In this document: positions 27,896 through 63,163 of the stretch, in pieces
Layout of the letters: every line of letters starts with the position of its first letter
How positions within the stretch are numbered: position 1 is the first letter of the stretch
NCBI GenBank assembly: GCA_963680875.1
Contig: OY804579.1
Location: 49,502,536-49,566,535, forward strand
Direction: 5' to 3'
DNA: 64,000 nucleotides
From: Bathymodiolus brooksi
Lineage: Eukaryota > Mollusca > Bivalvia > Mytilida > Modiolidae
The notes under the pieces: generated by a model
What the model was told of the DNA's origin: nothing
Seen by the model: only the letters and a program-made list of their open reading frames with translations
Database searches by the model: none
Made by a program: the position numbers and the translations under genes

Positions 27896-28239
27896 CTGTA
27901 TTAAATACAAATAAATCAGGGTTTTTTTCACAAAATACGATGTTTGTATTTTAACGTGTAAAATTTTGTTTTTACAATTAGTTATATATCCTGATTATGT
28001 CATTTGTCTCAAGTCTCCCATCGACGAATATCTTTTGTCAAAAATTTGATATATATTTGATATTATTATGCTTTCTGTAAATTTCTTCTGTAATATAAGT
28101 TCATACGATATTTTGGCATATATCACAAAGAATTATATAGCGTTGATATACTATACGAAAATAGTACATCTACTATGCCAGTTTCACGCGGGGAAGGTTG
28201 GGTTTTCAGCTGTCTGTCAAGCTATATATAGCTAGTCCA

Positions 28240-28268
28240 CGTGTAAGGGGGGTGGGGGGGGGGGGCGG
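28240..28268. repeat. Poly-G tract
   Basis: GGGGGGTGGGGGGGGGGGG before CGGATCC. The other arm of the duplication has only a six-base run here (about 62811-62818), so the tract expanded in this arm or contracted in the other. Confidence 0.8.
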
Positions 28269-28520
28269 ATCCAATCTGTCAATCTATCATAGTCGTCTAT
28301 TATTCATGTTACTGTTTTTTAATGCTTGTTATTGTTGTTAATTAAATTTCAAACTTCAAAAATGTTTATATTTTTAAAGCCTTAAATGAAACAAAGAATA
28401 TTCTTACACTTTCAAGACTATCTGATCCAATGTATTAGTCACCAATATCAGGACCTCCTTTATTGTAATAGTTCTCAATATATTTTGTCTACATATAACA
28501 GTCAGCATAATAATAATAAT

Positions 28521-28651
28521 AATGTTGTGTTAGCAATGACTATGCCATATAGTGGTCAGGGTTGAATACATAGTGCACTCCCCCTTCGGGTCGTGCACTA
28601 TGTCTTCAACCCTGACCACTATATTGGCATAGTCATTGCTAACACAACATT
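28521..28651. repeat. Palindrome with ~60-bp arms
   Basis: AATGTTGTGTTAGCAATGAC and GTCATTGCTAACACAACATT at the ends; the centre is CCCCTTCGGGT. Only one or two mismatches are visible. The same palindrome is at 62426-62555, carried there by the duplication. Confidence 0.9.
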
Positions 28652-29202
28652 ATAATATAAATAGACATTTTGCACATTCCCAGATTGATTCTAAAATTAT
28701 GCGTTTTTAAGCTTTTCTATACGAGTTATTTCCCTTACGATCAAAAGGAACATTTTTTTTAATAACAAATAGAAAATTCTCAAGTTGTGATAACATTAAC
28801 ATTTTGAACAGTTTAGGGGAAAACTATTTTATTTTCATTGAATTTTGCATAAAATAGGATCCTTTTTTCCACATTAAAGGGAAATAACTCATGTAAAACG
28901 CATAATGTTATAGTCAAAGTCAGAAATGTGGAAATAATCTATTCAATCTTTAAATCGTACTTCGTTTGTTAATATATCAAGGCTTGTATAAAATTAAATA
29001 ATGAATATAAAGATTGTTGGTAATATTACTTGTTAATACTATTTAGAACAACCAGCGCTCCTAGATAACGGACCGAGGAACACTGAATGATCGGAGAATG
29101 ACAACCAGTATGCTTGATATTTTTTTTTATCGGAACGAAATTAGACAAAATGACTAATTGGCGGATTATTGTTGCAATATAATTGACTGACTGACGAACA
29201 GT

Positions 29203-29416
29203 GTTGCACGAGGGATACTGGTCTAACGCGTGCATATTGAAAGTTGAACGATCTGATTTAACCTTTGACTGCTTGATCGGTGACTTTTGGCGGATAGTAA
29301 AATAAAAAAAGACTGTTGTATGTTGCACGAGGGATACTGGTCTGACTCGTGCATATTGAAATTTGAACGATCTGACTTAACCTTTGACTGTTTGATCGGT
29401 GACTTTTTGCGGAAGA
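29203..29416. repeat. Tandem duplication, ~118-bp unit, two copies
   Basis: GTTGCACGAGGGATACTGGT through GACTGCTTGATCGGTGACTT occurs twice with small differences. It is also present twice in the other arm (61690-61880). The minus-strand open frames here show the repeat in translation and are not called as genes. Confidence 0.75.
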
Positions 29417-29477
29417 AAAAAACAGAAGAATGTTGACTGAATGGAGAACTATAATATAACAGTCCTAATAATGGGTA

Positions 29478-29550
29478 TATATCTAAATTAGTGTGCACAA
29501 CACGTTTCTTGAATGACCTTAATCGGGTACGCTCAAAGTCAAAATAGGTT
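29478..29550 (-). repeat. Family B 3' end
   Basis: ATATCTAAATTAGTGTGCAC, then TTTCTTGAATGACCTTAATC and GGTACGCTCAAAGTC: the inverted 3' signature of family B. Also present in the other arm at about 61540-61610. Confidence 0.65.
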
Positions 29551-29923
29551 TTTGCTTTAAACATAGGTTATTCACAACTGTATATGAATAGAATTGAGCA
29601 ACAGTTTGTTCTTTTTCTCTTGTTCAGTGAACTATCTGTCGTTCATCTGTCTACGACTTCTGATTACACTTCTAACGTTTTCTGACATTTCTTATAATAA
29701 CATTATGAGGTAAATGATTATAATATGTATTTTCAAATTAGAAAGGAATTTCGTAATAGATATTCACGTGTATTATTACCTCAACGATTACTCTAACAAT
29801 TTGAAAGCGTTGTTTGTTTACTTTAATATGTGTCTAAGTGTAATGTTGGATAGTCGCCCATGTTCATTTACATCTAGGATACCTTTCATATTAATGTCAG
29901 TGATAATATCAAAATAATAATAC

Positions 29924-32577
29924 CTTTTGCATGACCAGTCGAAGTCCAGATTTTCATTCCCTCCCATTCCTATTTCGGGATCATACGATACGTTTAAAGC
30001 GTTCAAGGTAATGTTTTTCAAAAGTACTTGGACGTTCCTCTCGTAACCACCTTCTATGTATGCAAACGGTGGTGATTTTATGAACATCAAATAGGTTGGT
30101 TCATACACCCAAGTATTCAGCAAGGTGACATTTAATGTTATCATGTATAAATGGGCATGAACGGTACCTCTGGCGACTCGCAAGGTTCCTCGTGTGATAC
30201 CGAACGGTTTATATGGATAGTATATTGTTACAGGGTCGTCACCAGTATCATTTACAACAGTATATAACTTCCATTCAAATATTACACTTTGGTCAGAGCA
30301 ATATACTGCCATTCGGCTTGCCAAGTCAAAATCAACAGACGTATAAACTCTCATAGGGCCTGTAGTATTTGAATATTGCCGATCGAACATACCATTGACT
30401 GTAAAACACTCATTCCAGACATTGACTATTTTCTTTAATATTTGGGTATCGTAGTAATTGGAACACTCGACATTTACAGTGTGGTTACCCAGCGTGAGAT
30501 ATGTAAAATCGAGAAGCATAGGTTCGGCTGACGATAAGTTTGCCGTCCTGGTGTAAATTCTTCGGTTTATCAAATCACCCATATTAAACACGCACTTGAC
30601 CATTGGAAACTTAGAGTTAGATATGACACGAACGGTGACGTTTCCTGGAGGCATATCTAACTTGTCAGGCATATCAATGGCGAGGTGACCAGTCATATTG
30701 TAATCGGTTACTATATAATTTTCGAGATATAGAATTTCTTTGAAAGTAGTATTGTAGGCCTCCAACTGCACAAAGAAAGAACCATAGGAAGTGTATACAT
30801 GATGTGCCGTTGATGGGTCAACATGTAAATGGTAGGGTTCGCCTTCACCAACGTCTAATAGATAATTTCCATTCACGACACCGGACATGCTAAATATGAA
30901 TTGTGATCCATCAATAGAGCCTAAATACGAACTAGAAACAAAATCAACAACCCCGATTTTGATAGGAAGCGTTTTTATGATCCTACTGGTGCTGTTTTTA
31001 ATAGTGACCGATACATTGAATTCTCCTCTCGATGCGTATGTATGTCTAAACGTTTCCAATCTGTTGTATTTAGTAGGAGGAGTGCCGTCTCCAAAATCAT
31101 ACTTTAAATATGTTAAGTAAGGAAATCGTGCACATTGTAAAATGGAGATATCAAAACGAACAATAATAGGCACATCTCTAACTGTTTGTTGATCGTCTTC
31201 AGCTGTTAGTGTTTTATTCATTCCTGACTCGGGTTTAAAGGCAACAAGAAAATCAGATAATTGTGCCGGTTGTATAATTATTTGGGTTTGAAGAGTGTAA
31301 TTGCTTACATCATTTTCACAAAATATTACAACAAGTTTCAATCCTCCCGTTTCGTACAGGTGCAATTGTGTTAAATAAGTATATTTAATTATCACTGATT
31401 TGTTATACAAGGAAGTATCTGGTTCAAAACTATAGTAACATGTTACATTCGTTGGTGATGGTCCATTATAAAGCATTCGAATCAAAAACGAAACCTTACC
31501 ATCAGGTAGTGGTAGCATTTCTGGGGGATCCGCAATGGCTGGTAGCAACTTTAATTCTGGAATGGCAATTTGAATTTTTATCTCGTAAGTAACCACGCTG
31601 AAATAAAACGGATTTGAAGCATTCATTTGAATTGTATATATGCCATCTTGAGAGTAGCTATGACTCCAAGATTCCATGCTAAATTCGGAATAAAATAAAT
31701 CCGCAGACCCCTTTTTTGTATTATTATCGCCGTATGCTAAAATAAATTCAAAACCTTTCCGAGGAATATTGTCGAATGTAAACGGTATGATTTCAAATGC
31801 CCTTGCTAGTCTATTTGAAACCAACGTCACATTACTTATGTCTTCCCAAACATATATATCATAGTTGATAACTTGTGAACTCAACTCTGATTTTATGGTG
31901 ACCGTTAAAACATAATCTCTTTGTTCTATATAACTATGATTCAACTTTAAACCATCCGCCAATAATATGCTTAAATCTTCACCAAGGTAAATAGATTCAT
32001 TTGATCCATCGCCGTAATTTACGACAACCGTCAAATTTCCCATCGGAAGTCTGCTTTCGAAATCTAAATATACAATCAAGCTAACCGTATCACCTGGAGA
32101 TATCATTATGTCAAGTTGTGTCCCATATTGTTCTGAAGCTTTTTCAATCAACCAACACAACACCTCTGTTTTGTTGGTGGTTACTAGGCAACCTTCAGTA
32201 CTATTGGTTTTTGCCACACACTTGTAGTCGATCGTGCTGTTATATAATATGGTGCTGTTACATTTTGTAACGTTGATAGGAAGAAGTACTTGAGAAACAT
32301 TAATGGAAAAACCTGCTATAGGACGAACAACGGTTATGACTACGTTTGTCTGGTATGCCTCATTTAATGCATTCCGGACAACAACGGTTATATTATGATC
32401 ATCCGGGGTTTGATATACGTGATATGACGTCACTTCCTGTGGGTTGCCTGGTGTTATCTCCCTTTGTGATTCATTTCCATAAGCAAACCATTCAACATCC
32501 ATATTACTACCAGTTTGAATCGTTGCGTGTAAAAGTGTACTGTCGTCTGTTAGCGCCAGCATCTTTACTTCTGGTAC
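29924..32577 (-). CDS. Polycystin-1 family large exon: PKD repeats and start of REJ
   Basis: This 2.65-kb exon (about 884 codons) lies between a TTTAG acceptor and an AAAAG|GTATTA donor. It starts VPEVKMLALTDDSTLL in phase 0 and ends in TGC AAA AG. PKD-like repeats are seen at DVEWFAYGNES, VVNYGDGSNES, ILAYGDNN, YDFGDGTPP with the later HTYASRGEFNVSVTI, LLDVGEGEP, and CVFNMGD with GNHTVNVECSNYY. From about residue 715 a REJ-like stretch follows (VNVWNECFTVNG, CSDQSVIFEWKLY, NENLDFDWSCK). More than 30 NxS/T sites indicate an extracellular, glycosylated region. The frame runs past the donor for about 30 codons to a stop at 29818. In family members the PKD array mediates adhesion and mechanosensing. 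A pseudogene copy is at 58501-61261. Confidence 0.93.
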
Positions 32578-32661
32578 CTAAAGGGGATTATAAATGATAG
32601 AGATATATGTCGTGTATATGTCAATATTGCAATATCCTTCTTTTGATGTTGTTGTTGCTGT

Positions 32662-32892
32662 TGTTTGATAGTGTTTAACGCCACTTTCAACAATATTTCA
32701 GTCATTGGTGGAGGAAACCGGAGGACCCGGAGAAAACCACCGACCTCTCGCAAGTCACTGACAAACTGTATCACATAATGTTGTACACCTCACCCTGATC
32801 GAGAATCGAGCCCACAACATCAGTGGTGATAAGCTCTGATTGCATAGGTAGTTGTAAATCCAACTACCATATGATCATGGCCACGACTGCCC
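32662..32892 (-). mobile_element. tRNA-derived SINE (arm 1 copy)
   Basis: GTGTTTAACGCCACTTTCAA on plus marks the tail. GAGAATCGAGCCCACAACAT is the B-box region, and GCCACGACTGCCCC the 5' end. The same insertion is in arm 2 at 58188-58420, so it predates the duplication. Confidence 0.82.
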
Positions 32893-33609
32893 CTCCTTCC
32901 TTTGAAAAATAACGTTCACTGCTGAATACTAAAGACATGGTGAAGTTAACTAACCAATTACAAATTACATTATACATTTATCAGACAATATTAGGCAGCA
33001 ACCTGTTCATTAATCATGAGCACTGAAACTGTATCATTTAATAACAAAGACAGAATTGTCTTGTCTTATCCCTCAAAACTTTTTTCGGAAAGATATCGGC
33101 ACCTTGTGGAAAGGTACACATGACATAAATGGTATTGGCAATTAGATGTTGGTTCAGAGTAGATTATTGTTTCCCTAATACGTCTACCAATTGCCTTGCA
33201 TACTATTTAATACCCATTCTCTGTAAGGACTTCAATAGCTATACAGTGGACTGGAAATGCATGTCTTCAGATATTGGTGTTATGTTGTCAGATCACTTAC
33301 CTGACCAAGTTTAACAACTTAAGAAAAGAAAATTTCAAAAATTACGATTCGTTGCCATGGCAACCATACCTCTTAAAAACTTGGTCCTGGAGAGGGCATT
33401 CTTCAGGACAAAATCTTCTGTTTTTCCAAGTTATCAAAATAAAACTGGTTGTAAATGAAGGAACTTTATCTATACATGTTAGTTAAAGGTATGTTAAGCT
33501 TTCTTTCTACAAAAAACATTTTGTTACACAATATCATTTTCCATTGCTAAATCTGGGCTAAGAATGGGATATTTTCCGAAATTTGCAAATTGGAAATTTT
33601 TGTTTTTTT

Positions 33610-34295
33610 TGCGTTTTTCAAATTGAGTTTACATTATGTTGCCATAATTTTATTCTAAATGACATTCATGATTTAATGACCTTTATTACCAATAAACAAT
33701 ATACAAAGCAAATTTGGGTGGGACCTTTCCAATTTAACCTCATAAAATGTTTCTAAAAATAGCACAGGCTAGCCATTGGCTGATTTTCCTCAACATTTAA
33801 TAATAGTCTTTTTTCATAAAAAATGGAAATTTTTAGTTGAATTGTCATGATTTGATGGCATTTGTGATAGAATAAACCAAATTCATAGCAAACATGGATG
33901 GGATCTATCCAATTTAGCACCTTAACCTGTTTCTCAAAATAGCACAGGCTAGCCATTGGCTGATTTTCCTCAACATTTAATGATAATGTTTTTTCATTAA
34001 AAATGACAATTTTCAGTTGAATTGTTATGATTTGATGAGGCTTGTGGTAGATAAACCAAATTCATAGCAAATCTGGGTGGGATCTATCCAATTTAAAGCC
34101 ATAACATGTTTCTAAGAATAGCACAGGCTAGCCATTAGTTCATTTTCCTCAACATTTAATGATAGTCTTTTTTCACAAAAAATGGCAGTTTTTAGTTGAA
34201 TTTGTATGATTCGATGACTATTGTGATATATACATCAAATACATAGCAAAACTGGATGGGATCTATCAATATAACACATAAACACAAATGCTGAG
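33610..34295. repeat. 180-bp tandem array, ~3.5 copies
   Basis: AGCACAGGCTAGCCATTGGC recurs at 33761, 33941 and 34120, with AATTCATAGCAAA and GGGATCTATCCAATTTA in each unit. It starts immediately outside the end of inverted duplication arm 1. Confidence 0.88.
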
Positions 34296-34299
34296 AACG

Positions 34300-36520
34300 C
34301 ATGCGCATTCGTTAAATTACTGCGTTCTACGGCACTCGTGATTATATTTTCGATATTAACACTCTCCAATTAATTATCCTATAATTATGTCAAAGCTACA
34401 TACATGTACCAAATAAAAATTCATTCTGCACAGTAGAAGCTGAGAGAAAAATATTCCCAAAGCTCTTGGACAAACTATTATTATATAAACAAACAGTCAA
34501 GGTAAATGCAATATAGCCACCAGACCTTTTAAATTATTCCGGTGCCAATAAAAACGTCAATCATAAAGTGGCCGTTGCTTATAAAAAACATTCGGGTGCT
34601 AGTATATATATTTTTGATAATCCTTTCATTCCGTGAAAAAGATTAAAATTAATATAAACCTGTTCGTCTTGGTTAAATCTTCGATGGTCATCCATCTCTA
34701 CGTCATGTTTTTATCTGAAAAGGTCCGTTGTTTTATCATAAATGTGCCGTTTCTCCGGAAAGTGTCCGTAACGACATACCACCGTGTATTAAGGGCTATA
34801 TAAAGAGACCCGTGTGCAAATGCTTCGAATATGTGCAAATTATTTTGTAGGGATGATTAAATCAAGCGTTTATGGGCATTAAATAAAATTAGAGACGCAT
34901 TTTCTTCATGAAAACATAATTTGAAGTGGAAATTTAATTTTAAAAATATAATTTAGGTCATAAACGCTCAATCAATGTTTATTTTTTTTTTTAGCAAATT
35001 TCAACTTATTTTAACATTTAATAAAAGTTATTTCTATCATTTTCCCCCGTTGACATAATTTATTTCACAAAAATGAATGCGAGTTGACATCAAAGGGAGA
35101 TAATTCGGAGGAAAACTAATTTACCCCCCCCCCCTTTTTTCGCATTAAATTTAAGAACAAAAAACCCTTTTTTGTTACTTTAGTATGGAAACATATATTG
35201 TCCAGTTAGCTAAGGATATAAGGATTTTTGGATAAGGGTATGCTTTGAAACGATAGTGACTTTTTTTTTATTGCTTCAGTTTTGAAAATTGACCACTCAA
35301 GTCTCAAATAAGAAATACATGTACATTTTTCATAAAGATGTAAACAGAATGTAATGACCACCCATTTAAATTATCATAATTATTGAGGTAATTACACATG
35401 ATTGTCTATTTATATTTCGAAGATAAAAAAATATTGAAAATTGTGAAAAAATGTATTGTTCTTTTTACATTTTAGTGTATTTTTTCATGAAAAACGTACA
35501 CCCTATTTAAAGACCCATAAACAAAAATTCTATTGAAAATATGCCCTATTTTTCAACTTCTGAATGTTAACATGTAAATGATGCTTTTGGTATGTTGTTT
35601 TTGAATATATAATAAAAAGAAAAGGTAAAAAAACAGTTGGGTAATTTTTTTCATAAAATAAAAATTTTCCAAAAAAAAAAGAAGGTGTCTATCAACCTAT
35701 GAGTATGAACCCATATCTTGGTTTTAGAAAGGTAGTTAACTTCAAATCTTTATTTTTTTCAATTATTCAGATGTTGCACACAGAATTAAAGTGAACAAAT
35801 ACTAATAAATTTGAGTTTTAGGTTGTTAGTTTAGCCGGCCAATTTGCTTACATGTACTATTATTGATTCCACAAAGGAGAGTTAAGAAAGGGAGATAATC
35901 CTTACCTGCATAACAAGGGCTCCAATAGGGAAATTCCAATTCTCAGTTATCACATATAAGAGAAGCTCCCATTATTTTGTTTATTGAATAAAGTTCTATA
36001 TTATTGGAACCATTGATTCAACTTCGTATAAGTAAGTTATTAGCATGGAACCTCATTTTTTTTATACTCAAAAAAAGGTTATTCCTGTCCCTTTCTTTGT
36101 CATAATCACATTTTGACAGACAATAGCCAATGTTTGGTACAAGTTACACATTTGGCACTCTGACCATTCTTTACCTATAAATCATATAAAATGTTTTTAA
36201 CAAGAGTGGGTGTTTGAATTAAGAATAGTTTTAACAGCTGAACTTTCTTTTAGAGGGATGTGATTTTTTTTTACAATTTTTCAGACTCGGAATATTTGAG
36301 CTGGATGCCATGGAAACCGGCATTTGCTACAAATATTTTGCAACATTTTCCATCATTTCTTATGACACTTTAAAAAAATAGATAACATTAGTTGGATTCT
36401 GAGACTATGCATTTCCTGTCAATTTAAGTCCTGACAGAGAATGGGTATTAATATTTAAACGATGATTAAGGTCATCGGGTCTCTTTAATATAATTCATAT
36501 ATATGGCACCTTCTGTAACA
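34300..36520. other. AT-rich gene-free stretch
   Basis: No exon, transposon domain or strong repeat is recognised. It contains homopolymer runs (C12 near 35125, T and A runs) and short spurious frames only. It is probably intronic in the polycystin gene, since the next upstream exon is at 40931-40621. Confidence 0.5.
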
Positions 36521-36529
36521 CGAATATTA

Positions 36530-36915
36530 TAGAGTTGAAGTCATCACTTTGAAAATGTTACGGTCGCCACCATGACTTGGTTGACCGTTATGGAATATCT
36601 GTGTCACAAATGACCACGGATATGTTTCACTTGTCAAGCACATCCCGGTCCTTTCCTCATTCACGACTTATTACCGGGGTTGGAACTAGATTAACACGAC
36701 GGATGCCACTGGTGGAGCAGGAACTGCTTTTACTTCCGGAGCACCTGAGTTCACCCCCGGTTTTCAGTAGTGTTCGTGTTACTCGATCTTTAGTTTTATA
36801 TGTATGTTTTGTAGATCGTTGTTTGTCCTTTTGTACTTTTTCTTTTGGCCATTGTGTTGTCTGTTCTTCGATATACGGATTCTTATTGCCCCTTTGGTAT
36901 CTTCAAACTCTTCTT
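36530..36915 (+). repeat. Dispersed repeat family A, near-complete copy
   Basis: ACGGTCGCCACCATGACTTG, then GACCACGGATATGTTTCACT, CGGAGCACCTGAGTTCACCC and CTTTAGTTTTATATG. This is a good reference copy of the family. A residual open frame (36577-37017) spans families A and B and is not a gene. Confidence 0.65.
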
Positions 36916-36917
36916 AC

Positions 36918-37070
36918 AGGTGACCTTAGCCGATTTTGGTTATCCTGTTTAGGCCCGTTGGTTTTCTTACTCCCAAATATTTGTTTTATTATATCATCTG
37001 GCTATGAGAGTACCTGATGAAAGATATTCCAGAAACGCGCCGTGCGCACCATATTTTATATCTACGGGAA
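36918..37070 (+). repeat. Family B 3' end
   Basis: AGGTGACCTTAGCCGATTTT, TTTAGGCCCGTTGGTTTTCT, CTGATGAAAGATATTCCAGA and ATATCTACGGG. It directly follows a family A copy, as at 44800. Confidence 0.65.
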
Positions 37071-37184
37071 CGATACAAGGGTTTGATGCTCAATATTTTT
37101 TGCATAGAGATAAAAAAAATCGACAAAAATCGTTTAATTTAGATTCACATAGGCATAGCAAATAAGACAATATCAACAAGATTT

Positions 37185-37430
37185 CTCAACATCATTATCA
37201 GAACAAATCATGGACAGACTGCAATTGTCATGCAGTATGGAGTGTGTGACCACCCATTGCAGCAACGACAACTTCGTATCTCCGACGCATAGAACCAATC
37301 AATCGTTGGATAAAAGCTTCTTGGATGTTGTTCCACTCGCGCACAAGTGCGTCACGCAGCTCATGTAGTGTTTCCGGTGGATTTTGACGGTGACGAACAC
37401 GTCTACCGAGTTCATCCCATAAATGTTCAA
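37185..37430 (-). pseudogene. Tc1-like transposase, C-terminal part
   Basis: The minus-strand frame reads IEHLWDELGRRVRHRQNPPE, then TLHELRDALVREWNNIQEAF, IQRLIGSMRRRYEVVVAA. This is the C-terminal DDE_3/Tc1 block following the S-P-D-L-S-P-I motif. The upstream part of the same gene is at 39770-39219, separated by a 1.78-kb insertion. Confidence 0.82.
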
Positions 37431-37432
37431 TA

Positions 37433-39216
37433 CGACAGTTCGGAGTTAGGGGAAGACTTATGTCCCTTGTCTAGCTCTTTGCCGTTAAGAGTACATAAGG
37501 TGTACATCCGGGTCTCATTTTCTGACACTTTTTTATCAACCCAGCTGTGAGCGAAGCGAACATGGTTGATACTTGTAAACACTTTGAAATCGGAAGCGGA
37601 AGTGTGAGGAGCTTAAGCCATTTGCCTGTTTTCGTAATTGAACATTTTTGTCGCGCCAAAGGCGCAACCAACACGAAACAAATAAAATAAAATAATGACT
37701 TTAAAATTGTATTGAGAATTAAAACTTACGTTTTCGTGCCTTGGATACGACTATATCATTCAAATAGAAAACAGGGTTTTACTTTCGAACTTGAAGAAGG
37801 CAGAGTTGTCATTGAAGGTTTCGTAAATAAAATAAATAATAAACTTTGTGTCGTGCCGAAGGCACGAACACTACGAATAAAGAAATACAATCGTCGTGCC
37901 AAAGGCACACCCGATATGAACAAAAGAATGAATCAGCACGGCCATATTAAATGTTGCAAATGGGTCCCATGGCAACACCTTGACGGAAGTTGATTCGCCC
38001 TTTATTTTCATAGACAAAGAAACATTAAGTTTTCGTTCTGAAGGCATATCTTATATTGATATAATAAAATTAATTTACTAGTCATGCCAAAGGCACAACC
38101 ATTACGAACAAAATTTCAAAAGTCTTCGTGCCGCAGGCACGAACACAGTATAGTCGGAATGGATCCCATGGCAACACATTGCCGGAAGTTAATTGTAACT
38201 GGTATTTACCAAGTGAAATCATACATGTCATATTTACAACAATGCACAAAAATAATTAAAAAGTTTACCATGAAAACCTATTTTAGTTAAATTGTATCAA
38301 ACTTGAAGCGAACACGAAGCCAAATAACGTCTAATCTTTACGTTTCAAACTGGAAGTCTTCATATGACGTCATGTTGGTTATGTTCCAAAGTCGTCAATA
38401 ACATTTCGCGGTTGTTTTTCAGTTTACTCGCAATCGTATGTTTATGTGTATGTCCATTGTTTCAGGCTCTCCTTGGGTATTTCTTTAATAGTATTTAGCG
38501 TCGAAAACAAACACGAATAAGAATTATAAGGATTGTCTTTTAATCGACTCCTTTCGCAGCTCTGCTGCAGTTTTCTTGTTTAAGATGGCTGCCGCCTTTT
38601 GTTGCAAATAGCTGTCATTATCAGCAGAGAAAAAACTTTCCCTTTTATACCTTACCGGGTAGTAGTTGCGTGTAAACTTCATATTCTATGTTATCACTGA
38701 TCATTGCCTGGCTAGGTTAGGATCATTCATCAGAAGCTGAAACTGCAGATAAAGAAACTTTGCTATATTGTGCAGTATCGCCGCATCGGATGTAATGACA
38801 ATGTTCAAATTTAGTTACCGTAGATGACACTGAACATTTCAGGTGTAAAATTACCTGCTTTATGAAAAAAAAATTGAGCTGACTATATTTAATGAAAATA
38901 ATTGACATTTTATGATTTTAGTTGTCACATTAAAAGAAACCTACTTCTTTTTTTTACGAAGGTATTTTCCCTGTATCAATGTTAGATTTACAGTAACATA
39001 ATATACAGACAAACCAATTATTATTTGTCATATTAGAAAGAATACATAAATAGCTGTGGGTATTATTTTTTTTTAATATTTTCCTGCATCAATGTTCAAT
39101 TCAAAGGAACATAATACAGAGTAAAACCCGCTATTTTGAACTAACGTCCAACGGCGGGAAATATAATAGTACTATTTTACCTCCTTCACAAAAGACTTTC
39201 TAACTCCGAACTCCCG
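37433..39216. mobile_element. TIR element nested in the Tc1 copy
   Basis: The left end CGACAGTTCGGAGTTAGGGG and the right end in inverse CGGGAGTTCGGAGTTAGAAA form TIRs of about 17 bp with partial extension to AAGACTT/AAGTCTT. The insertion splits the transposase codons for S-P-I and E-H-L-W, with a 2-bp duplication (TA or AT; the symmetric ends make it ambiguous). Inside are repeated short hairpins of the GTGCCRAAGGCAC type. No transposase is visible. Removing it restores the Tc1 coding order. Confidence 0.68.
37650..38145. repeat. Dispersed short hairpins, GTGCCRAAGGCAC
   Basis: CGCGCCAAAGGCGC (about 37653), CGTGCCGAAGGCACG (37853), CGTGCCAAAGGCAC (37895), ATGCCAAAGGCAC (38085) and CGTGCCGCAGGCACG (38130), each followed by an A/C-rich ACGAA-type stretch. 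Two also share a following GGCAACAC-TTG-CGGAAGTT block (37970, 38165). Confidence 0.75.
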
Positions 39217-39218
39217 TA

Positions 39219-39780
39219 TTGGTGACAGATCCGGGGATAATGCCGGCCAAGGAAGAAGCCGGATGTGATTCTGGTTCAGAAAATCTTAACAAATACGAGT
39301 CACGTGACATCTTGCATTCCTGTGTTGAAAGACGTGATAACATTTTCGCTGTTGCAGAAAGGGCAGAACGATAGGATCAAGAATATCGCCTCTGTATTTT
39401 ACGGCATTCAATGTTCCTTGAACAATTTTGAGCTGAGTGCGACCACCATGACAAATTCCAACCCAGACCATATCACTTCGGCATCCATAACGGTCGGCCT
39501 CGTACACACACTGGTCCGTAAAACGTTCCCCACGCCTGTAGTACACACGAAAACGTCCATCGCAAAAACGAAGTGAAAATCGGGATTCATCACTAAAAAG
39601 GATGTGTTGCCATGTGTTACCTGTTTGTCGACGACGAATTATTAGCCTTGAAATGGTTATTCTAGACACATTAAAGTGGTCTGCAACGGCCTGGTGAGTC
39701 ATTCTTGAGCCTGAACCATACCCACCGCTCTCTCACAGGTATTTTGACAGAGACGTGGCATCGACGTTCTTGTGAAAATT
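39219..39780 (-). pseudogene. Tc1-like transposase, N-terminal and catalytic parts, deleted
   Basis: Minus-strand frames give a helix-turn-helix (RMTHQAVADHFNVSRITISR) that jumps straight to NTWQHILFSDESRFSLRFCD, the first catalytic block (SDES). About 100 or more residues in between are missing. It continues GDILDPIVLPFLQQRKCYHV and FQHRNARCHVTRIC, then a TAA in place of a codon, then DFLNQNHIRLLPWPALSPDLS. The in-frame stop and the internal deletion show it is dead. The insertion at 39216 follows. Confidence 0.85.
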
Positions 39781-40612: not shown

Positions 40613-40620
40613 AATACTAC

Positions 40621-52262: not shown

Positions 52263-52344
52263 TAGCTTATCTTATCATTATTCCACACTGAAACTACTGA
52301 ATAAGTAAAAGTCAAAGGTCACTTTCATAATAAAAAAATAAGAA

Positions 52345-52564
52345 AAACGTAGATATCAAATTTAGTGCGCACGACACGTTTCTGGGATAACTTTCATCAG
52401 GTACACTCAAAATCTAAAGACTGGAAAGACAAATAATTTAAAGTTTTGGGAGCAATAAAACCAAATGGGCTAAACCGGATCACATATGCCTGAGGGAGGA
52501 GGACTTTAGTTTTGTTAGTAATTACATTATTTAGGAACTGTAAATTTCAGTAATAAATATATCT
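52345..52564 (-). repeat. Family B copy, left part, interrupted by insertion
   Basis: AAATTTAGTGCGCACGACAC through GGAACTGTAAATTTCAGTAA to ATATATCT. The matching rest (ATCTAATAAACCATGTCAGT) resumes at 54264. Confidence 0.75.
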
Positions 52565-54263
52565 GGGTCATAATCAAAAACACGCACTTTTCTGTTATTA
52601 CGCAATTAAAAGACAAATATCAACCAAACTGATTGGAGAAAACATGTTTTGCATGAAGGCACATCAGCTTTCTATAGTTTTACCATCTAAATCCAGATTG
52701 GTCCAATTGCGAATTTATACTAGCTACACGAAGACCTGTTGTTTCCTTGGTGTTACGTGTAATTTTTCCAGAATGACTTACTTTTGGTCATTTGTACTAT
52801 TCAGATGTTATGATTTTATTCGATCTTTATATTACTATTACTAAAACTCTAATAGCACAACAATATTTTTGCTTGATATATATTGAAATTTAAAAAGAAA
52901 ATTAGCAAAAACCTGCTGTTATAGATTTTCATGTCTGTGGTGTTACCCTTCCTATTAAGGCTGGTAAGAGTTATCTGTCTTGTCATATTTGAAGCAAAAA
53001 TAGTTTCTACCTTTGCATATTACCTGTTTCATGACATGTGCAGACGACAAAAACAAAAGTGATCTATAAACTAATATAGAGCCGAAAAGGTATGTGCGAT
53101 TGGTATAGTATATAAATTGTATGTCTGTGGTGTACTTCTCACTACTTCTTTTTGTTAGAATTGAACATAATGTAAAAATATACAATACATTACATTAGGT
53201 ATTCTTCACAGGATATACATATAAAATATAGTCAGGGAGATATTATTTTCCTTTTATCCTGAAAATACTTACATGTTTTCTGTGGTGTTACTGTCAATGG
53301 TGTTACCATAAAGATTGTGTAACACCACAGACATTTAGCATTAAAATTGTGAATAAACACATTATTCCATAAACACTAATATACAGAACAAAATATTGCT
53401 CTTTAACTTATGCAGAAAAATTGTTCAAACATCGTCATTTACGTGTAAGATATAGTTTAACAAGCTGATGGGAGTATACTTTTTAGACCTGGTAACACCA
53501 GGGACATATCTTCATAATACCATGGACATATCTGCATAACACCATGGACAAACTGATATTGCTCATGCATCAAACCAATATGTTGAAAAACTGAATATTG
53601 TACTGAAAACATTAAGAAAACAACAAATATAGGTTGGTAGTTGTGTTTTTTTTCTTGAATTAAATGTTTACATTCATGAAGATGTCCCTTTTGTTACTTT
53701 TGCCATATGTGGTGTTACCTCTTGTCAATGGTGTTACCTCATGTAAATTGTTTCATAAAAAGGATAAATGACATAATTGATGTAAATTATATTATAGTTG
53801 AATAAAGTTGACTTTGATAACTATGTATAAGTCATCTTTTCTTTATATAAAGTGAAACAACATACAATTATGAAAACTTGTTTGTTTCATAATGCAGCTT
53901 AAATGGAATTCCACAACTACATATCCAAATATTGTGAAAAAAACTAGTGCTCCAAAGAAAATATCCTACATTATGCATAATTTTCCTGTATATTATGTAT
54001 GTAACCACTTTTTACATAAAAAATATTTTTCATTTTCCTAAGAAGAATAAATTTATGTTGGTAACACCACGGTCTGAAAGGTATTAGGAGGTGCTACATA
54101 TCTAGAAATATTTTTTTTCATGGTGGTTTTCCCGACTGCATATTATGTAAATATGTCATTGTAATGTAGGAAAAACTAATAGGCTAAAGCAAAACGGGAA
54201 CGAAAATATTTGATGTCACCAAAATATGAACAGGAAAAAGTGCGTGTATTTTGATAATGACCC
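52565..54263. mobile_element. 1.7-kb TIR element with internal GGTGTTACC motifs and ATCT target duplication
   Basis: The left end GGGTCATAATCAAAAACACG and the inverse of the right end GGGTCATTATCAAAATACAC pair over about 33 bp. The direct repeat ATCT flanks both sides (52561-52564, 54264-54267). The related family B copy at 22912-23205 shows the uninterrupted site (ATATATCTAATAAATC). Inside, TGGTGTTAC or its inverse occurs about ten times. The frames present (such as 52644-52844) are short and match nothing known, so it looks non-autonomous. The superfamily is undetermined: 4-bp duplications occur in several. Confidence 0.82.
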
Positions 54264-54350
54264 ATCTAATAAACCATGTCAGTGCCGAATTACTGACTAC
54301 TGTGCGAATGATACCATCGGGGACAAATAGTTCACCAGCTGAGGTATCGA
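54264..54350 (-). repeat. Family B copy, right part after insertion
   Basis: ATCTAATAAACCATGTCAGT, AATTACTGACTACTG and GGGGACAAATAGTTCACCAG continue the copy interrupted at 52564. Confidence 0.72.
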
Positions 54351-54366
54351 CTCAGTGATGTTAATA

Positions 54367-54460
54367 AAAACGTAGATATCAAATTTAGTGCGCACGTCGC
54401 GTTTCCGGAATAACCCTCATCAGGTAAGCTCAAAATTGAAAGACTGAACAACTAAGTAAT
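54367..54460 (-). repeat. Family B 3' end
   Basis: AACGTAGATATCAAATTTAG, TGCGCACGTCGCGTTTCCGG and ATCAGGTAAGCTCAAAATTG. Confidence 0.68.
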
Positions 54461-54629
54461 TTAACTTAAACTGTCTTTAGAACTGGGTCAGAGATTATTA
54501 ATCGCATATTATGCTTATTTATAGTGTTATAGTATTTTGTGTTTATTGTATATACATTTGTATGTCTGTCTTATACCAAAGATGATTAGCGTGAGTAGTA
54601 TATCAGCACAGCTCAAGTAGCATTTGAGG

Positions 54630-54962
54630 TGGAGCAGTGACGTCACCGGAAATGACGTCACCGGAAATGAGGTGATCGGAAGTGAGGTGATCGGAAGTGA
54701 CGTCACCGGAAGTTGTGAACCGGAAATTAAAGAGCGATAATTTTCCCGCGCTTTTTACTCGTATTTCCCGCGTTTTTTCAGGAACTCCTCTAGATTCTAG
54801 GTAGGAACAATGGAATTTTGAATCCAACCAATCGTCGGCCTTCTGATATTTGAATCCCACCAATCGTAGCACTTCTTGCTTCGAATTCAAAACCAACCAA
54901 TCGTATGCTTTCGATTTGAGTCCAACCATTGTCTGGATTTGCTTGCATCTGGTTGCTACTAA
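54630..54962. promoter_or_regulatory. Dense CCAAT / ETS-like / CRE-like site cluster
   Basis: Five or six CCGGAAAT / TCGGAAGT / CCGGAAGT cores (ETS type) alternate with TGACGTCA (CRE type) at 54636-54720. Three CCAATCGT boxes at about 54830-54910 are each embedded in a diverged ~50-bp repeat. Such a combination is typical of TATA-less promoters, and the GC content is above that of the surroundings. No gene starting here was identified. A minus-strand open frame (54971-54603) overlaps it and is probably incidental. It may be a transposon-internal promoter or a genuine one. Confidence 0.4.
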
Positions 54963-54979
54963 ATCTTTCAATTTAAATT

Positions 54980-56030
54980 AAACTTTCATATTCGAGGGTA
55001 ATAATAATATTTTCTATATTTTCATCAGCATACGATGACGTATTGTTATCAGCATATTATACAGATTATCATATAATGGAAAATGCAGCTGCATGGTCGG
55101 TGGATTTGTTAATGATTGTACTATATGTTTTGTGAATGAATCAATCAATAACTACCATTATTTCATAGGACATTATTTTGCTTTACAAATGTACCGATGA
55201 ATACAGGGCCAATATCCAAATGGTCAAAAGGGGTGATACTCATCAGAAGCTTGCTTTTATTCCCATTTCTAAAGCTCATACAAATAAATAATATATTGTC
55301 GGACAATGTACATCAATTATATATATACTGTGACAATTGGAGTGTAAATTTACTTGGTATGGCCTTGACTGCCTTGTTATTATATTTAAGAATATAAAAT
55401 ACAAGTAATTTTTGTATATCATATTAAGAATTTTCTTTTGAAGAATTTAATTAGCGTTATATTTTTGACAAACTTTTCGTCTGCTAAATCTATTGATTTT
55501 ATGTTATCGGATAATCAAAATATTTAAAATGTCCTTTGTTAAAGGTCGCGTGGCGTCTGCTACATTCCTATCTAATTGTATGCTTCAGATGATACCTTTA
55601 ATTATACTTTAATAGTGTATGTACCTTGACAGACCGTCATGAATTAATAAGGGAATAGTCATTATTTATCAGGTGGAGGGGCTGGACAATTTTAGTGGGG
55701 GTCAAACAAATTTGTATATAGGTATTGTGGGGGTCAATTTTTAAAACCACTCAGCTTAGGGGCGGTCAATTTATCCTTAAAACATTTGGTTGTGAAAAAA
55801 ATAAAAAGTAAAAATTAAAAAAAAAAAATGAATAAATAATTTGGAAAACCTAAACAGTTCTAAACACTTAAGTGTGAAGGACATGAGAGTAAGGGGTGAT
55901 ATTCAATGTAGCGTTTAAATAATTAGTAATGCAACTTTGGGAAGTATCTAACTAGGATTTATAAATATCAATATAGCTATAATTATCTGGAATTTTATTT
56001 ACATGTATTTTGAAATGTAAGTTTCTGAAT
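54980..56030. other. Stretch without recognised gene
   Basis: AT-rich, with a G-rich segment at about 55675-55765 (two AGTGGGGGTCAA / TGTGGGGGTCAA motifs). No splice-bounded exon was found. Confidence 0.4.
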
Positions 56031-56034
56031 AAAA

Positions 56035-56600
56035 ATGAACTCAAAGCAATTAACACTATGTAGTGAACCAAAGAACTCTTACAGCCGTTCTCTGCAAAGA
56101 AGTACTGATGTTGTTATAGATTCGGAAAACAATATACGGATATTCGCACAGTGCACAAAAACTATTGCAGATAATCGGAATAAGCTAAACGGCTTATTAC
56201 ATGTGTCACAATATTCTAAATTCGAATTCCGCTCACTTCTAGGATTAGCAGTTATAGATGAATTGCAGAATATCTCGATTTAAAAAATGTGAAAAACATG
56301 AATGATTTATTAAGAAAAAACAATGATCAGCCTACTATCATTGACGTAAGTTGTGTACAGACAGTAGGTCTAATACATGCAAAGGGACTTTTTGTCTTAT
56401 TAGAAACAAACTTCTTTACATTTGAAGCAAAATGTATAATCCTGGATAATGTGTGCCCTATTGTTGAAAAAAGATATTGGAAGTTATTTGAAAACCATTA
56501 AAATGTGAATGGTGAAAATGAGAGCATGGAAGAGGTGGATATGGATGGAAGTGAGAGTGATCAGGAATTTACTGGTAATGAAACAGATGAAAATGAATGA
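56035..56600 (+). pseudogene. Run of unrecognised small ORFs, possible decayed gene
   Basis: Three plus-strand frames follow closely: 56035-56283 (82 aa, starting MNSKQLTLCSEPKNS), 56289-56501 (70 aa, with IIDVSCVQTVGLIHAKGLFV) and an acidic tail at about 56509-56601 (ESMEEVDMDGSESDQEF) ending in TGA. The first and third share a frame. The spacing suggests one gene broken by a stop and frameshifts, or an intron-containing one. I recognise no family. ETS-like CCGGAAG sites lie on both sides (54.6-54.7 kb and 56.77-56.82 kb). Confidence 0.25.
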
Positions 56601-57299
56601 GCAAGTAAGGTGCATGAGCATCTTTGAAGTATGTTTATATGGTCAACAAAAGATAGATATTAAACATTTTGTAGCTTATACTTGTACATGTATATAGGTG
56701 ACATTTTTCATATACATGTACATGTAAGTAGTATATGGGTACGGACAAAGTCATATTTGTGGGGAAGTAATGGGGAGCAACCGGAAGTCACGTGTTCGGG
56801 AGTTGCGTGACCGGAAGATTTTTGAATAGGTTATATGATTTAGCCTCTTCTGGAGCAGTATACGATTAATAAACCGCGAAGCGAAGAGGTTTACGAAAAG
56901 CGTAAACTGTTTTAAACCAGATTATACAAGTATAACCTGTGCAAAAATTTAACATATTCCTAATATCCCTTATAATTTAATGATTCCTCGATTTTAATTA
57001 CGATAGTTTCATGTGACTATTTGAATTTGTCGTTGGCGAATGAATATGTTGGAGACGTCACAATATCAACCCAGGTAATCAAGTATAACTGATGTTGCTC
57101 CAGGCGGATCAGCCAATCAGATAGCAGAATTAACATCAAATTAAATCATTCGTTTGTTCTGCATACAGTTAAACCTGACAGAACCTACCACCGTTTAGAC
57201 CTACTTTTTGCACAGCAAACAGAGCGATGTCCGGATTAAACAGGTTAAATTTGTAAATGTTACATATTGGTACTAAATATGATGCCATGTTTATACAAG

Positions 57300-57465
57300 A
57301 TTTCAGTTTAATCGGGCTTCGGCTTATACAGGTATTTTCGCACCGTTCGCACTAATTAAGATATCTACGTTTCTATAACAATCACTGGATCGAAAACATT
57401 GGTAAGTGGACTATTATTCTCCGAGGTTGTCATCCGCCCCAGTCTTTCGGCACTGACATGGTTTA
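57300..57465 (+). repeat. Family B pieces
   Basis: CGTTCGCACTAATTAAGATA with TCTACGTTTCT, then GTGGACTATTATTCTCCGAG and CTTTCGGCACTGACATGG as also seen at 44700-44760. Confidence 0.5.
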
Positions 57466-58187
57466 TTACATATCAAAAAGCAAAAATTTCCAATTTGCAA
57501 ATTTCGGAAAATATCCCATTCTTAGCCCAGATTTAGCAATGGAAAATGATATTGTGCAACAAAATGTTTTTGTAGAAAGAAAGCTTAGCATACATTTAAC
57601 TAACATTTATAGATAAAGTTCCTTCATTTACAACCAGTTTTATTTTGATAACTTGGAAAAACAGAAGATTTTGTCCTGAAGAATTCCCTCTCCAGGATCA
57701 AGTTTTTAAGAGGTATGGTTGCCATGGCAACGGATCGTAATTTTTGAAATTTTATTTTCTTAAGTTGTTAAACTTGGTCAGGTAAGTGATCTGACAACAT
57801 AACACCAATATCTGAAGACATGCATTTCCAGTCCACTGTATAGCTATTGAAGTCCTTACAGAGAATGGGTATTAAATAGTATGCAAGGCAATTGGTAGAC
57901 GTATTAGGGAAACAATAATCTACTCTGAACCAACATCTAATTGCCAATACCATTTATGTCATTTGTACCTTTCCACAAGGTGCCGATATCTTTCCGAAAA
58001 AGTTTTGAGGGATAAGACAAGACAATTATGTCTTTGTTATCAAATGATACAGTTTCAGTGCTCATGATTAATGAACAGGTTGCTGCCTAATATTGTCTGA
58101 TAAATGTATAATGTAATTTGTAATTGGTTAGTTAACTTCACCATGTCTTTAGTATTCAGAAGTGAACGTTATTTTTCAAAGGAAGGA

Positions 58188-58420
58188 GGGGCCGTCGTGG
58201 CCATGATCATATGGTAGTTGGATTTACAACTACCTGTGCAATCAGTGCTTATCACCACTGATGTTGTGGGCTCGATTTTCGATCAGGGTGAGGTGTACAA
58301 CATTATGTGATACAGTTTGTCAGTGACTTGCGAGAGGTCGGTGGTTTTCTCCGGGTCCTCCGGTTTCCTCCACCAATGACTGAAATATTGTTGAAAGTGG
58401 CGTTAAACACTATCAAACAA
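58188..58420 (+). mobile_element. tRNA-derived SINE (arm 2 copy)
   Basis: GGGGCCGTCGTGGCCATGAT head, TATGGTAGTTGGATTTACAA with the A box, GTGGGCTCGATTTTCGATCA B-box region and TGAAAGTGGCGTTAAACACT tail. Its orthologue in arm 1 is 32662-32892. Confidence 0.82.
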
Positions 58421-58503
58421 CAGCAACAACAACATCAAAAGAAGGATATTGCAATATTGACATATACACGACATATATCTCTATCATTTATAATCCTCTT
58501 TAG

Positions 58504-61261
58504 GTACCAGAAGTAAAGATGCTGGCGCTAATAGACAACAGTACACTTTTACACGCAACGATTCAAACTGGTAGTAATATGGATGTTGAATGGTTTGCTT
58601 ATGGAAATGAATCACAAAGGGAGATAACACCAGGCAACCCACAGGAAGTGACGTCATATCACGTATATCAAACCCCGGATGATCATAATATAACCGTTGT
58701 TGTCCGGAATGCATTAAATGAGGCATACCAGACAAACGTAGTCATAACTGTTGTTCGTCCTATAGCAGGTTTTTCCATTAATGTTTCTCAAGTACTTCTT
58801 CCTATCAACGTTACAAAATGTAACAGCACCATATTATATAACAGCACGATCGACTACAAGTGTGTGGCAAAAACCAATAGTACTGAAGGTTGCCTAGTAA
58901 CCACCAACAGAACAGAGGTGTTGTGTTGGTTGATTGAAAAAGCTTCAGAACAATATGGGACACAACTTGACATATTGATATCTCCAGGTGATACGGTTAA
59001 CTTGATTGTATATTTAGATTTCGAAAGCAGACTTCCGATGGGAAATTTGACGGTTGTCGTAAATTACGGCGATGGATCAAATGAATCTATTTACCTTGGT
59101 GAAGATTTAAGCATATTATTGGCGGATGGTTTAAAGTTGAATCATAGTTATTTAGAACAAAGAGATTATGTTTTAACGGTTACCATAGAATCAGAGTTGA
59201 GTTCACAAGTTATCAACTATGATATATATGTTTGGGAAGACATAAGTAATGTAACGTTGATTTCAAATAGACTAGCAAGGGCATTTGAAATCATACCGTT
59301 TACATTCGACAATATTCCTCGGAAAGGTTTTGAATTTATTTTAGCATACGGCGATAATAATACAAAAAAGGGGTCTGCGGATTTATTTTATTCCGAATTT
59401 AGCATGGAATCTTAGAGTCATAGCTACTCTCAAGATGGCATATATACAATTCAAATGAATGCTTCAAATCCGTTTTATTTCAGCGTGGTTACTTACGAGA
59501 TAAAAATTCAATTTACCATTCCAGAATTAAAGTTGCTACCAGCCATTGCGGATCCCCCAGAAATGCTACCACTACCTGATGGTAAGGTTTCGTTTTTGAT
59601 TCGAATGCTTTATAATGGACCATCACCAACGAATGTAACATGTTACTATAGTTTTGAACCAGATACTTCCTTGTATAACAAATCAGTGATAATTAAATAT
59701 ACTTATTTAACACAATTGCACCTGTACGAACGGGAGGATTGAAACTTGTTGTAATTTTTTGTGAAAATGATGTAAGCAATTACACTCTTCAAACCCAAAT
59801 AATTATACAGCAGGCACAATTATCTGATTTTCTTGTTGCCTTTAAACCCGAGTCAGGAATGAATAAAACACTAACAGCTGAAGACGATCAACAAACAGTT
59901 AGAGATGTGCCTATTATTGTTCGTTTTGATATCTCCATTTTACAATGTGCACGATTTCCTTACTTCACATATTTAAAGTATGACTTTGGAGACGGCACTC
60001 CTCCTACTAAATACAACAGATTGGAAACGCTTAGACATACATACGCATCGAGGGGAGAATTCAATGTATCGGTCACTATTAAAACAGCACCAGTAGGATC
60101 ATAAAAACGCTTCCTATCAAAATCGGGGTTGTTGATTTTATTTCTAGTTCGTATTTAGGCGCTATTGATGGAACACAATTCATATTTAGCATGTCCGGTG
60201 TCGTGAATGGAAATTATCTATTAGACGTTGGTGAAGGCGAACCCTACCATTTACATGTTGACCCATCAACGGCACATCATGTATACACTTCCTATGGTTC
60301 TTTCTTTGTGCAGTTGGAGGCCTACAATACTACTTTCAAAGAAATTCTATATCTCGGAAATTATATAGTAGCCGATTACAATATGACTGGTCACCTCGCC
60401 ATTGATATGCCTGACAAGTTAGATATGCCTCCAGGAAACGTCACCGTTCGTGTCATATCTAACTCTAAGTTTCCAATGGTCAAGTGCGTGTTTAATATGG
60501 GTGATTTTATAAACCGAAGAATTTACACCAGGACGGCAAACTTATGGTCAGCCGAACCTATGCTTCTCGATTTTACATATCTCACGCTGGGTAACCACAC
60601 TGTAAATGTCGAGTGTTCCAATTACTACGATACCCAAATATTAAAGAAAATAGTCAATGTCTGGAATGAGTGTTTTACAGTCAATGGTATGTTCGATCGG
60701 CAATATTCAAATACTACAGGCCCTATGAGAGTTTATACGTCTGCTGATTTTAACTTGGCAAGCCGAATGGCAGTATATTGCTCTGACCAAAGTGTAATAT
60801 TTGAATGGAAGTTATATACTGTTGTAAATGATACTGGTGACGACCCTGTAACACTATACTATCCATATAAACCGTTCGGTATCACACGAGGAACCTTGCG
60901 AGTCGCCAGAGGTACCGTTCATGCCCATTTATACATGATAACATTAAATGTCACCTTGCTGAATACTTGGGTGTATGAACCAACCTATTTGATGTTCATA
61001 AAATCACCACCGTTTGCATACATAGAAGGTGGTTACGAGAGGAACGTCCAAGTACTTTTGAAAAACATTACCTTGAACGCTTTAAACGTATCGTATGATC
61101 CCGAAATAGGAATGGGAGGGAATGAAAATCTGGACTTCGACTGGTCATGCAAAATGTATTATTATTTTCTTATTATCACTGACATTAATATGAAAGGTAT
61201 CCTAGATGTAAATGAACATGGGCGACTATCCAACATTACACTTAGACACATATTAAAGTAA
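58504..61261 (+). pseudogene. Pseudogene copy of the polycystin large exon
   Basis: This copy of 32577-29924 is oriented on the plus strand. It is open from 58519 but has TAG in place of a Trp codon at 59413-59415, loses one A near 59730 (frameshift) and another near 60081 (frameshift). The last part (60191-61261) is again in one open frame. The splice acceptor (TTTAG) is intact and the donor context changed from AAAAG|GTATTA to AAAAT|GTATTA. Amino-acid differences to the intact copy are few (about 20 scattered substitutions), so the duplication is recent. No other exon of the gene was duplicated with it. Confidence 0.9.
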
Positions 61262-62425
61262 ACAAACAACGCTTTCAAATTGTTAGAGTAATCGTTGAGG
61301 TAATAATACACGTGAATATGTATTACGAAATTCCTTTCTAATTTGAAAATACACATTATAATCATTTACCTCATAATGTTATTATAAGAAATGTCAGAAA
61401 ACGCTAGAAGTGTAATCAGAAGTCGTAGACAGATGAACGACAGATAGTTCACTGAACAAGAGAAAAAGAACAAACTGTTGCTCAATTCTATTCATATACA
61501 GTTGTGAATAACCTATGTTTAAAGCAAAAATCTATTTTGACTTTGAGCGTACCCGATGAAGGTCATTCAAGAAACGTGTTGTGCGCACTAATTTAGATAT
61601 ATACCCTTTATTAGGACTGTTATATTATAGTTCTCCATTCAGTCAACATTCTTCTTTTTGTTTTCTTCCGCAAAAAGTCACCGATCAAACAGTCAAAGGT
61701 TAAGTCAGATCGTTCAAATTTCAATATGCACGAGTCAGACCAGTATCCCTCGTGCAACATACAACAGTCTTTTTTTATTTTACTATCCGCCAAAAGTCAC
61801 CGATCAAGCAGTCAAAGGTTAAATCAGATCGTTCAACTTTCAATATGCACGCGTTAGACCAGTATCCCTCGTGCAACACTGTTCGTCAGTCAGTCAATTA
61901 TATTGCAACAATAATCCGCCAATTAGTCATTTTGTCTAATTTCGTTCCGATAAAAAAAATATCAAGCATACTGGTTGTCATTCTCCGATCATTCAGTGTT
62001 CCTCGGTCCGTTATCTAGGAGCGCTGGTTGTTCTAAATAGTATTAACAAGTAATATTACCAACAATCTTTATATTCATTATTTAATTTTATACAAGCCTT
62101 GATATATTAACAAACGAAGTACGATTTAAAGATTGAATAGATTATTTCCACATTTCTGACTTTGACTATAACATTATGCGTTTTACATGAGTTATTTCCC
62201 TTTAATGTGGAAAAGGATCCTATTTTATGCAAAATTCAATGAAAATAAAATAGTTTTCCCCTAAGCTGTTCAAAATGTTAATGTTATCACAACTTGAGAA
62301 TTTTCTATTTGTTATTAAAAAAAATGTTCCTTTTGATCGTAAGGGAAATAACTCGTATAGAAAAGCTTAAAAACGTATAATTTTAGAATCAATCTGGGAA
62401 TGTGCAAAATGTCTATTTATATTAT

Positions 62426-62555
62426 AATGTTGTGTTAGCAATGACTATGCCAATATAGTGGTCAGGGTTGAAGACATAGTGCACGACCCGAAGGTGGAGT
62501 GCACTATGTATTCAACCCTGACCACTATATGGCATAGTCATTGCTAACACAACAT
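62426..62555. repeat. Palindrome, arm 2 copy
   Basis: Same as 28521-28651: AATGTTGTGTTAGCAATGAC with its inverse complement at the right end. Confidence 0.88.
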
Positions 62556-63163
62556 TATTATTATTATTATGCTGACTGTTATATGTAGACACAATATATT
62601 GAGAACTATTACAATAAAGGAGGTCCTGATATTGGTGACTAATATATTGGATCAGGTAGTCTTGAAAGTGTAAGAATATTCTTTGCTTCATTTAAGGCTT
62701 TAAAAATATAAACATTTTTGAAGTTTGAAATTTAATTAACAACAATAACAAGCATTAAAAACAGTAACATGAATAATAGACGACTATGATAGATTGACAG
62801 ATTGGATCCGGCCCCCCTTACACGTGGACTAGCTATATATAGCTTGACAGACACCTGAAAACCCAACCTTCCCCGCGTGAAACTGGCATAGTAGATGTAC
62901 TATTTTCGCATAGCATATCAACGCTATATAATTCTTTGTGATATATGCCAAAATATCGTATGAACTTATATTACAGAAGAAATTTACAGAAAGCATAATA
63001 ATATCAAATATATATCAAATTTTTGACAAAAGATATTCGTCGATGGGAGACTTGAGACAAATGACATAATCAGGATATATAACTAATTGTAAAAACAAAA
63101 TTTTACACGAAAAAATACAAACATCGTATTTTGTGAAAAAAAACCCTGATTTATTTATTTAAA

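Follow-up and report, generated by a model that had tools for sequence, protein, structure and literature searches.

A broken, inverted copy of a polycystin exon in a recently amplified polycystin-1-like cluster of the mussel Bathymodiolus brooksi

Introduction

Human PKD1 is accompanied by six pseudogenes on 16p, described as partial, unprocessed and recent copies on the same chromosome with indications of gene conversion (PMC2564946). Gene-bearing palindromes such as P8 of the human Y chromosome hold gene copies in long inverted repeats, with exchange between the arms and duplication or loss of arm sequence (PMC6790999). The sea urchin receptors for egg jelly (SpREJ) are, according to the abstract of PMC1934368, PKD1-family proteins with REJ, PLAT and PKD domains, occurring in many copies within one genome. 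The locus described here lies in a stretch of 64,000 nucleotides of Bathymodiolus brooksi (the window; contig OY804579.1, hereafter C5, positions 49502536-49566535, within a 2.0-Gb assembly of 136 contigs), in which a polycystin-1-like gene is accompanied by an inverted, broken copy of its exon 3.

As with human PKD1, a polycystin-1 family gene occurs together with recent, partial and unprocessed copies on the same chromosome that carry signs of conversion. However, unlike the copies described in PMC2564946, the mussel copy is inverted, comprises one exon, lies ~8 kb upstream of a predicted start codon and has been multiplied with the gene in tandem. The long inverted repeats with gene copies, the exchange between arms and the structural change recall such gene-bearing palindromes (PMC6790999), whereas the mussel arms are 98.3% alike, are no more alike between units than their surroundings and enclose a 23.9-kb spacer. 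The multi-copy PKD1-family genes with REJ, PLAT and PKD domains are shared with SpREJ, but the mussel locus holds inverted pseudo-exons and none are reported in the SpREJ abstract (PMC1934368). The most likely interpretation of the locus is an ordinary one: a duplicated, inverted pseudo-exon that is decaying, with limited conversion, within a polycystin cluster of recent amplification, comparable to PKD1 and its pseudogenes. Searches of the literature on PKD1 pseudogenes, on bivalve or mollusc polycystin or REJ, on positive selection in REJ and on inverted duplications with conversion showed no report of this locus, an absence that is not proof.

The inverted arms and the broken exon

Self-comparison of the window gave one long inverted match, 27901-33608 against 63162-57475, with 98.3% identity over 5710 columns; chance is excluded as the source of such a match. 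Arm A (27901-33608, minus strand; placed by the self-match and the alignment edges) contains the end of intron 3, exon 3 and the 3' part of intron 2 of the gene. Arm B (57475-63162, plus strand; placed in the same way and by comparison of the lesions) is the inverted copy. The spacer between them (33609-57474) measures 23,866 bp. Global alignment of the arms showed 77 substitutions, including 42 transitions, together with small indels, all scattered along the arms, and flanks that differ between arm B and arm A. In arm A, the exon 3 open frame (29818-32577, minus strand) runs for 919 codons, covers the PKD repeats and the start of REJ, and has a predicted splice end near 29920. The corresponding pseudo-exon in arm B (58504-61261, plus strand) is interrupted at codon 304 by a stop and has lost 1 bp each at codons 410 and 528. 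Two claims of a first-pass annotation, made from the letters of the window alone, are thereby upheld: the near-identical inverted arms are real, and one holds a working exon while the other holds a broken copy.

Arm B retains intron sequence, covering exon 3 together with the adjoining intron parts. Judged from its sequence, it is probably a duplicated (unprocessed) pseudogene fragment, with introns kept and disabling lesions in three of the three copies found. The explanation we consider probable is that arm B is an inverted copy of the exon 3 block, broken in all units of the cluster and likely a decaying pseudo-exon ~8 kb upstream of the gene, outside its coding span. No function of its own would be required for arm B under this explanation.

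The gene to which arm A belongs spans the window right across on the minus strand, as shown by tblastn alignment of six bivalve polycystin proteins obtained from a database search. A search with the chain of predicted exons returned 29 proteins, of which the top five are polycystin-1-like proteins of Mytilus; proteins of scallop, Pinctada and Solemya come next, as do weaker matches in lancelets and others. Exon 2 (40931-40612, minus strand) lies in the spacer, as the first-pass annotation had proposed, and is placed by homology to bivalve polycystin N-termini and by splice sites. Exon 4 (27900-27673, minus strand; by homology) lies just outside arm A and is absent from arm B. A further 14 exon-sized polycystin matches between 3 and 26946 (minus strand) cover the rest of REJ, the GPS region, the first transmembrane segment and the start of the PLAT region; the 3' half of the gene lies to the left of the window. 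Profile searches found PKD repeats in four stretches of exon 3 (89.1 bits); in a neighbouring unit (unit 2, below), where the 3' half of the gene could be read, this half matches PKD_channel with 102.8 bits. A composite of predicted exons from the window and that unit gave a nearly complete REJ domain (152.5 bits, profile positions 3-416 of 452), and a PLAT domain (37.6 bits, cut-off 23), while its GPS match of 17.9 bits lies below the cut-off of 22.5. On the PKD, REJ, PLAT and channel matches and the bivalve homology, the gene of arm A is a polycystin-1-like (PKD/REJ/PLAT) family member, and the polycystin identity first given to the exon is borne out.

No more than ~10 bp separates the outer edge of arm A from position 27900, where exon 4 is predicted to begin (window 27900-27910). 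Thus, arm B breaks off almost precisely where intron 3 ends, which may be a coincidence.

Three units and an unpaired copy

The arm sequence recurs on C5 at 49084077 and 49117411, at 49320515 and 49353888, and partly near 49699546 (best 40 of 2578 candidates scored). Fetched sequence showed that the inverted pair is present three times and that the two further pairs have the same inner joint as the window. We refer to these as unit 1 (arms A1 and B1) and unit 2 (A2 and B2), to the window as unit 3 (A3 and B3) and to a lone gene copy as C4. The A arms of successive units are spaced by 236,438 and 210,520 bp. Exon 3 of C4 lies at C5 49696472-49699225 (plus strand), and none of the places found holds an inverted partner for it. 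C4 continues past the arm edge into the flank that is missing from arm B (window 28543-26037, 98.6%), and its other side is rearranged relative to the window. A protein search of the assembly (25 matches, best 50 of 175 candidates scored) found seven close copies of exon 3: the four A-type copies (A1, A2, A3 and C4) are all open and the three B arms are all broken. These copies are at least ~95% alike, apart from one piece of B3 that contains a frameshift and reaches 89%; the remaining matches, also on C5, are at most 41% alike. The cluster is a case of recent amplification, with three tandem units sharing the inverted pseudo-exon and one unpaired outgroup copy, and its four open and three broken exons allow the decay of an inverted copy and its exchange with a working neighbour to be measured.

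B1 and B2 have in common a 1-bp deletion at codon 181, and no lesion is common to B3 and B1/B2. Thus, the B exon was probably still open when the units split and would have decayed separately afterwards. The pairwise distances are 0.09% for A1-A2, 0.08% for B1-B2, 1.09% for A1-A3 and 0.88% for B1-B3; those between A and B arms are 1.18-1.37%, and those from C4 to all others 1.65-1.97%. In a tree rooted by setting C4 as the outgroup, the A arms group as ((A1,A2),A3) with 96% support and the B arms as ((B1,B2),B3) with 78%. Since the arms group by type, it is likely from the sequences that a single inverted duplication preceded the duplications of the unit. At the outer edge, B1 and B2 have lost ~1.1 kb that B3 keeps, and in a third locus the sequence outside B1/B2 joins the sequence outside B3.

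Position of arm B relative to the start of the gene

Exon 2 matches residues 40-135 of a scallop homologue; thus, only a short first coding exon is still missing. The first-pass annotation had placed the 5' exons possibly beyond 63 kb, which would set arm B inside the same gene and both arms in one pre-mRNA. The minus strand from 40.9 to 64 kb was scanned for a start codon followed by a hydrophobic signal peptide and a splice donor. The loose scan gave 13 rows, in which three sets were in the phase needed by exon 2 and one only had a consensus donor. This predicted exon 1 (49435-49363, minus strand) would encode the signal peptide MMMILYVILLHVLGFGHFSSASLT, followed by the donor CAG|GTAAGA in phase 1. 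With strict criteria, the real region gave one candidate and four control stretches of the window gave none, and at least one candidate appeared in 2 of 300 dinucleotide shuffles. The predicted exon is identical between units 1 and 3. A 501-bp segment around it has four full-length matches in the assembly. Each unit contains one of them, and the fourth (C5:49683833-49684336) lies upstream of C4 in matching orientation; the remaining 55 of the 59 matches are short (best 40 of 628 candidates scored). As the predicted exon 1 lies in the spacer, arm B is likely ~8 kb upstream of the predicted start codon.

These results bear on the proposal that a promoter to the right of 63.2 kb drives a pre-mRNA containing both arms, which could fold into a 5.7-kb duplex feeding RNA editing or small RNAs. 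The 98.3% identity of the inverted arms and the presence of gene exons between them speak for such a duplex. However, a signal-peptide exon with the right length, phase and donor is predicted within the spacer, the exon 1 segment also stands beside C4, which is without arm B, and tblastn with bivalve polycystin N-termini gave no credible exon to the right of exon 2 in the window among the matches listed. In addition, units 1 and 2 have lost arm B's outer end together with the sequence flanking it. Both arms could share one pre-mRNA only through an untranslated first exon to the right of 63.2 kb, and nothing was found for one. Weakened in this way by the exon predicted in the spacer, the duplex was set aside as the leading explanation and is unlikely; the predicted coding structure does not support it. 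A hairpin transcript should not be assumed from an inverted repeat beside a gene before the 5' exons are placed.

Exchange between the arms and selection on the exon copies

The comparison of A3, B3, A1 and B1 over 4865 comparable columns showed 22 sites at which two sequences stand against two. At 14 of these the sites follow the arms, at three the units and at five neither, so that eight conflict with the arm tree where 0.13 are expected; none of 5000 simulations reached eight. Within 32107-32834, A3 clusters with B1/B2 (76% support), and a run of 610 bp shows no difference between A3 and B3 (P 0.02, six differences at the edges being omitted). A comparison of units 1 and 3, which did not include arm B, gave differences of 1.09% for arm A, 1.20 and 1.58% for the neighbouring spacer and 0.77% for the left flank. 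The divergence of arm A is thus like that of its surroundings, which indicates no homogenisation, and a palindrome kept uniform by conversion, in which the arms would be more alike than their surroundings, was rejected on these values. Judged from these sites, the arms have traded some sequence without being kept uniform. The suggestion that the arms exchange sequence by gene conversion therefore stands for some exchange, but not for homogenised arms.

The closest protein in the databases, P0002, comes from a JGI metagenome cluster of 75 member sequences. It has one residue found only in B (338T) and two found only in A1 (432K and 439H), and at the 74 variable positions every residue is present in at least one of A3, A1, B3, B1 and C4. 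This mix fits recombination and also a chimeric assembly. As P0002 has no residue foreign to the five copies, public metagenomes seem to contain DNA of this mussel or of a very close relative.

Between A3 and A1, the exon has 27 nonsynonymous and 2 synonymous differences (P 0.034, one-sided, unadjusted). The ratios for A3-C4 (53:11) and A1-C4 (50:9) are not significant, and the three comparisons together give no firm sign of positive selection. B3 and B1 differ at 18 nonsynonymous and 5 synonymous sites, changes like those of unconstrained sequence.

The conflicting sites, the clustering of A3 with B1/B2, the identical 610 bp, the A3-A1 ratio and the residues of P0002 would all accord with an inverted pseudo-exon retained as a gene conversion donor that diversifies the working PKD/REJ exon. 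However, 14 of the 22 sites remain arm-specific, only five of the eight conflicting sites lie within the exon, and the arms are not homogenised. Conversion could also import the frameshifts of B, the other selection comparisons are not significant and P0002 may be chimeric. Retention as a donor is thus very unlikely, and its stricter form, in which the pseudo-exons would be germline donor cassettes with one silent reversed copy per unit converting and diversifying a working receptor exon, is more doubtful still. Least likely of all is that the inverted pair is an assembly artefact with an alternative haplotype joined backwards, as the first-pass annotation had allowed: units 1 and 2 are 99.9% identical, within what an assembler can produce, and could be an assembly duplicate of each other. 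However, several findings make a single inverted-haplotype join unlikely: the pair is present in three units, unit 3 and units 1/2 have different B lesions, the ~1.1-kb outer deletion is confined to units 1/2 and the B flanks differ from the A flanks, which a backwards haplotype join would make the same.

Joints of arm B and origin of the inverted copy

The inner edge of arm B coincides with the end of a truncated copy of a high-copy interspersed element, element E (55648-57476, plus strand), for which the best 40 of 3800 scored candidates gave 53 matches on 14 contigs. Of five copies fetched from elsewhere, four were aligned, and in these element E continues past the point of the joint. Its left end is sharp. 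Insertion of arm B into element E was rejected, as neither the window nor the initial 72 kb of the unit-1 stretch showed the remainder of the element on the outer side of arm B. The outer edge adjoins a 64-bp tandem array (63159-63489, plus strand), whose flank recurs with a 94% match at C5:48977747-48979076. There, the array comes after a stretch whose translation weakly matches the C-terminus of a Mytilus polycystin (E 0.02). Because this stretch lies on the plus strand beside the matching flank, arm B was considered as a possible relic of an entire inverted gene that had a 3' end of its own. However, the plus-strand REJ exon ~53 kb upstream is only 38% like exon 3, and the outer flank thus seems to derive from another paralogue. 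Inspection by eye showed no target-site duplication at either arm B joint, and short A/T-rich similarity at both.

For the decaying pseudo-exon, the course of events could then have been as follows. A segmental duplication of the exon 3 block, joined by repair or template switching, would have produced the inverted pair, which was then multiplied with the gene in tandem units. Decay of the B copy would have taken independent courses in unit 3 and in the pair of units 1/2, and a few short conversion tracts may have passed between the arms.

Several points weigh against this reading. The repair- or template-switch-type origin of the copy is inferred. Support is lower in a tree of the exon only (77% for the A group and 53% for the B group). 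The strict criteria for exon 1 were fixed after the candidate had been seen, and the rows of the loose scan include two more phase-1 donors, both with a weak consensus. There may also be an untranslated exon beyond arm B. Finally, the A exon gives no sign of purifying selection at this depth (A3-A1), and thus the difference between open and broken copies is the only sign of constraint.

Other features of the locus

Searches of PDB and Rfam (gathering threshold), a tRNA scan and a comparison with viral contigs gave no leads. Within an intron of the polycystin gene, a transposase frame with a DDE_Tnp_4 domain (69.6 bits) occupies 9588-10448 of the window on the minus strand. A fragment in the spacer (39286-39732, minus strand) has weak helix-turn-helix and DDE matches, all under the curated cut-offs. 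The introns also hold 25 copies of a 63-bp satellite at 20648-22219 and 15 copies of a 30-bp minisatellite at 24083-24530; unit 1 has 16 copies of the 63-bp satellite. Nested direct and inverted repeats of several hundred bases each, 79-95% alike, lie at window positions 13272-16528. In the assembly, 24 of 28 REJ-family matches are on C5, over ~70 Mb. The region C5:49.13-49.26 Mb holds long satellites of 42, 22 and 59 bp, which cover 20, 15 and more than 5 kb, respectively. It also holds a tandem duplication of ~12.6 kb with the same open frames in both halves, one of which, a frame of 359 codons, appears transposase-like on reading its sequence.

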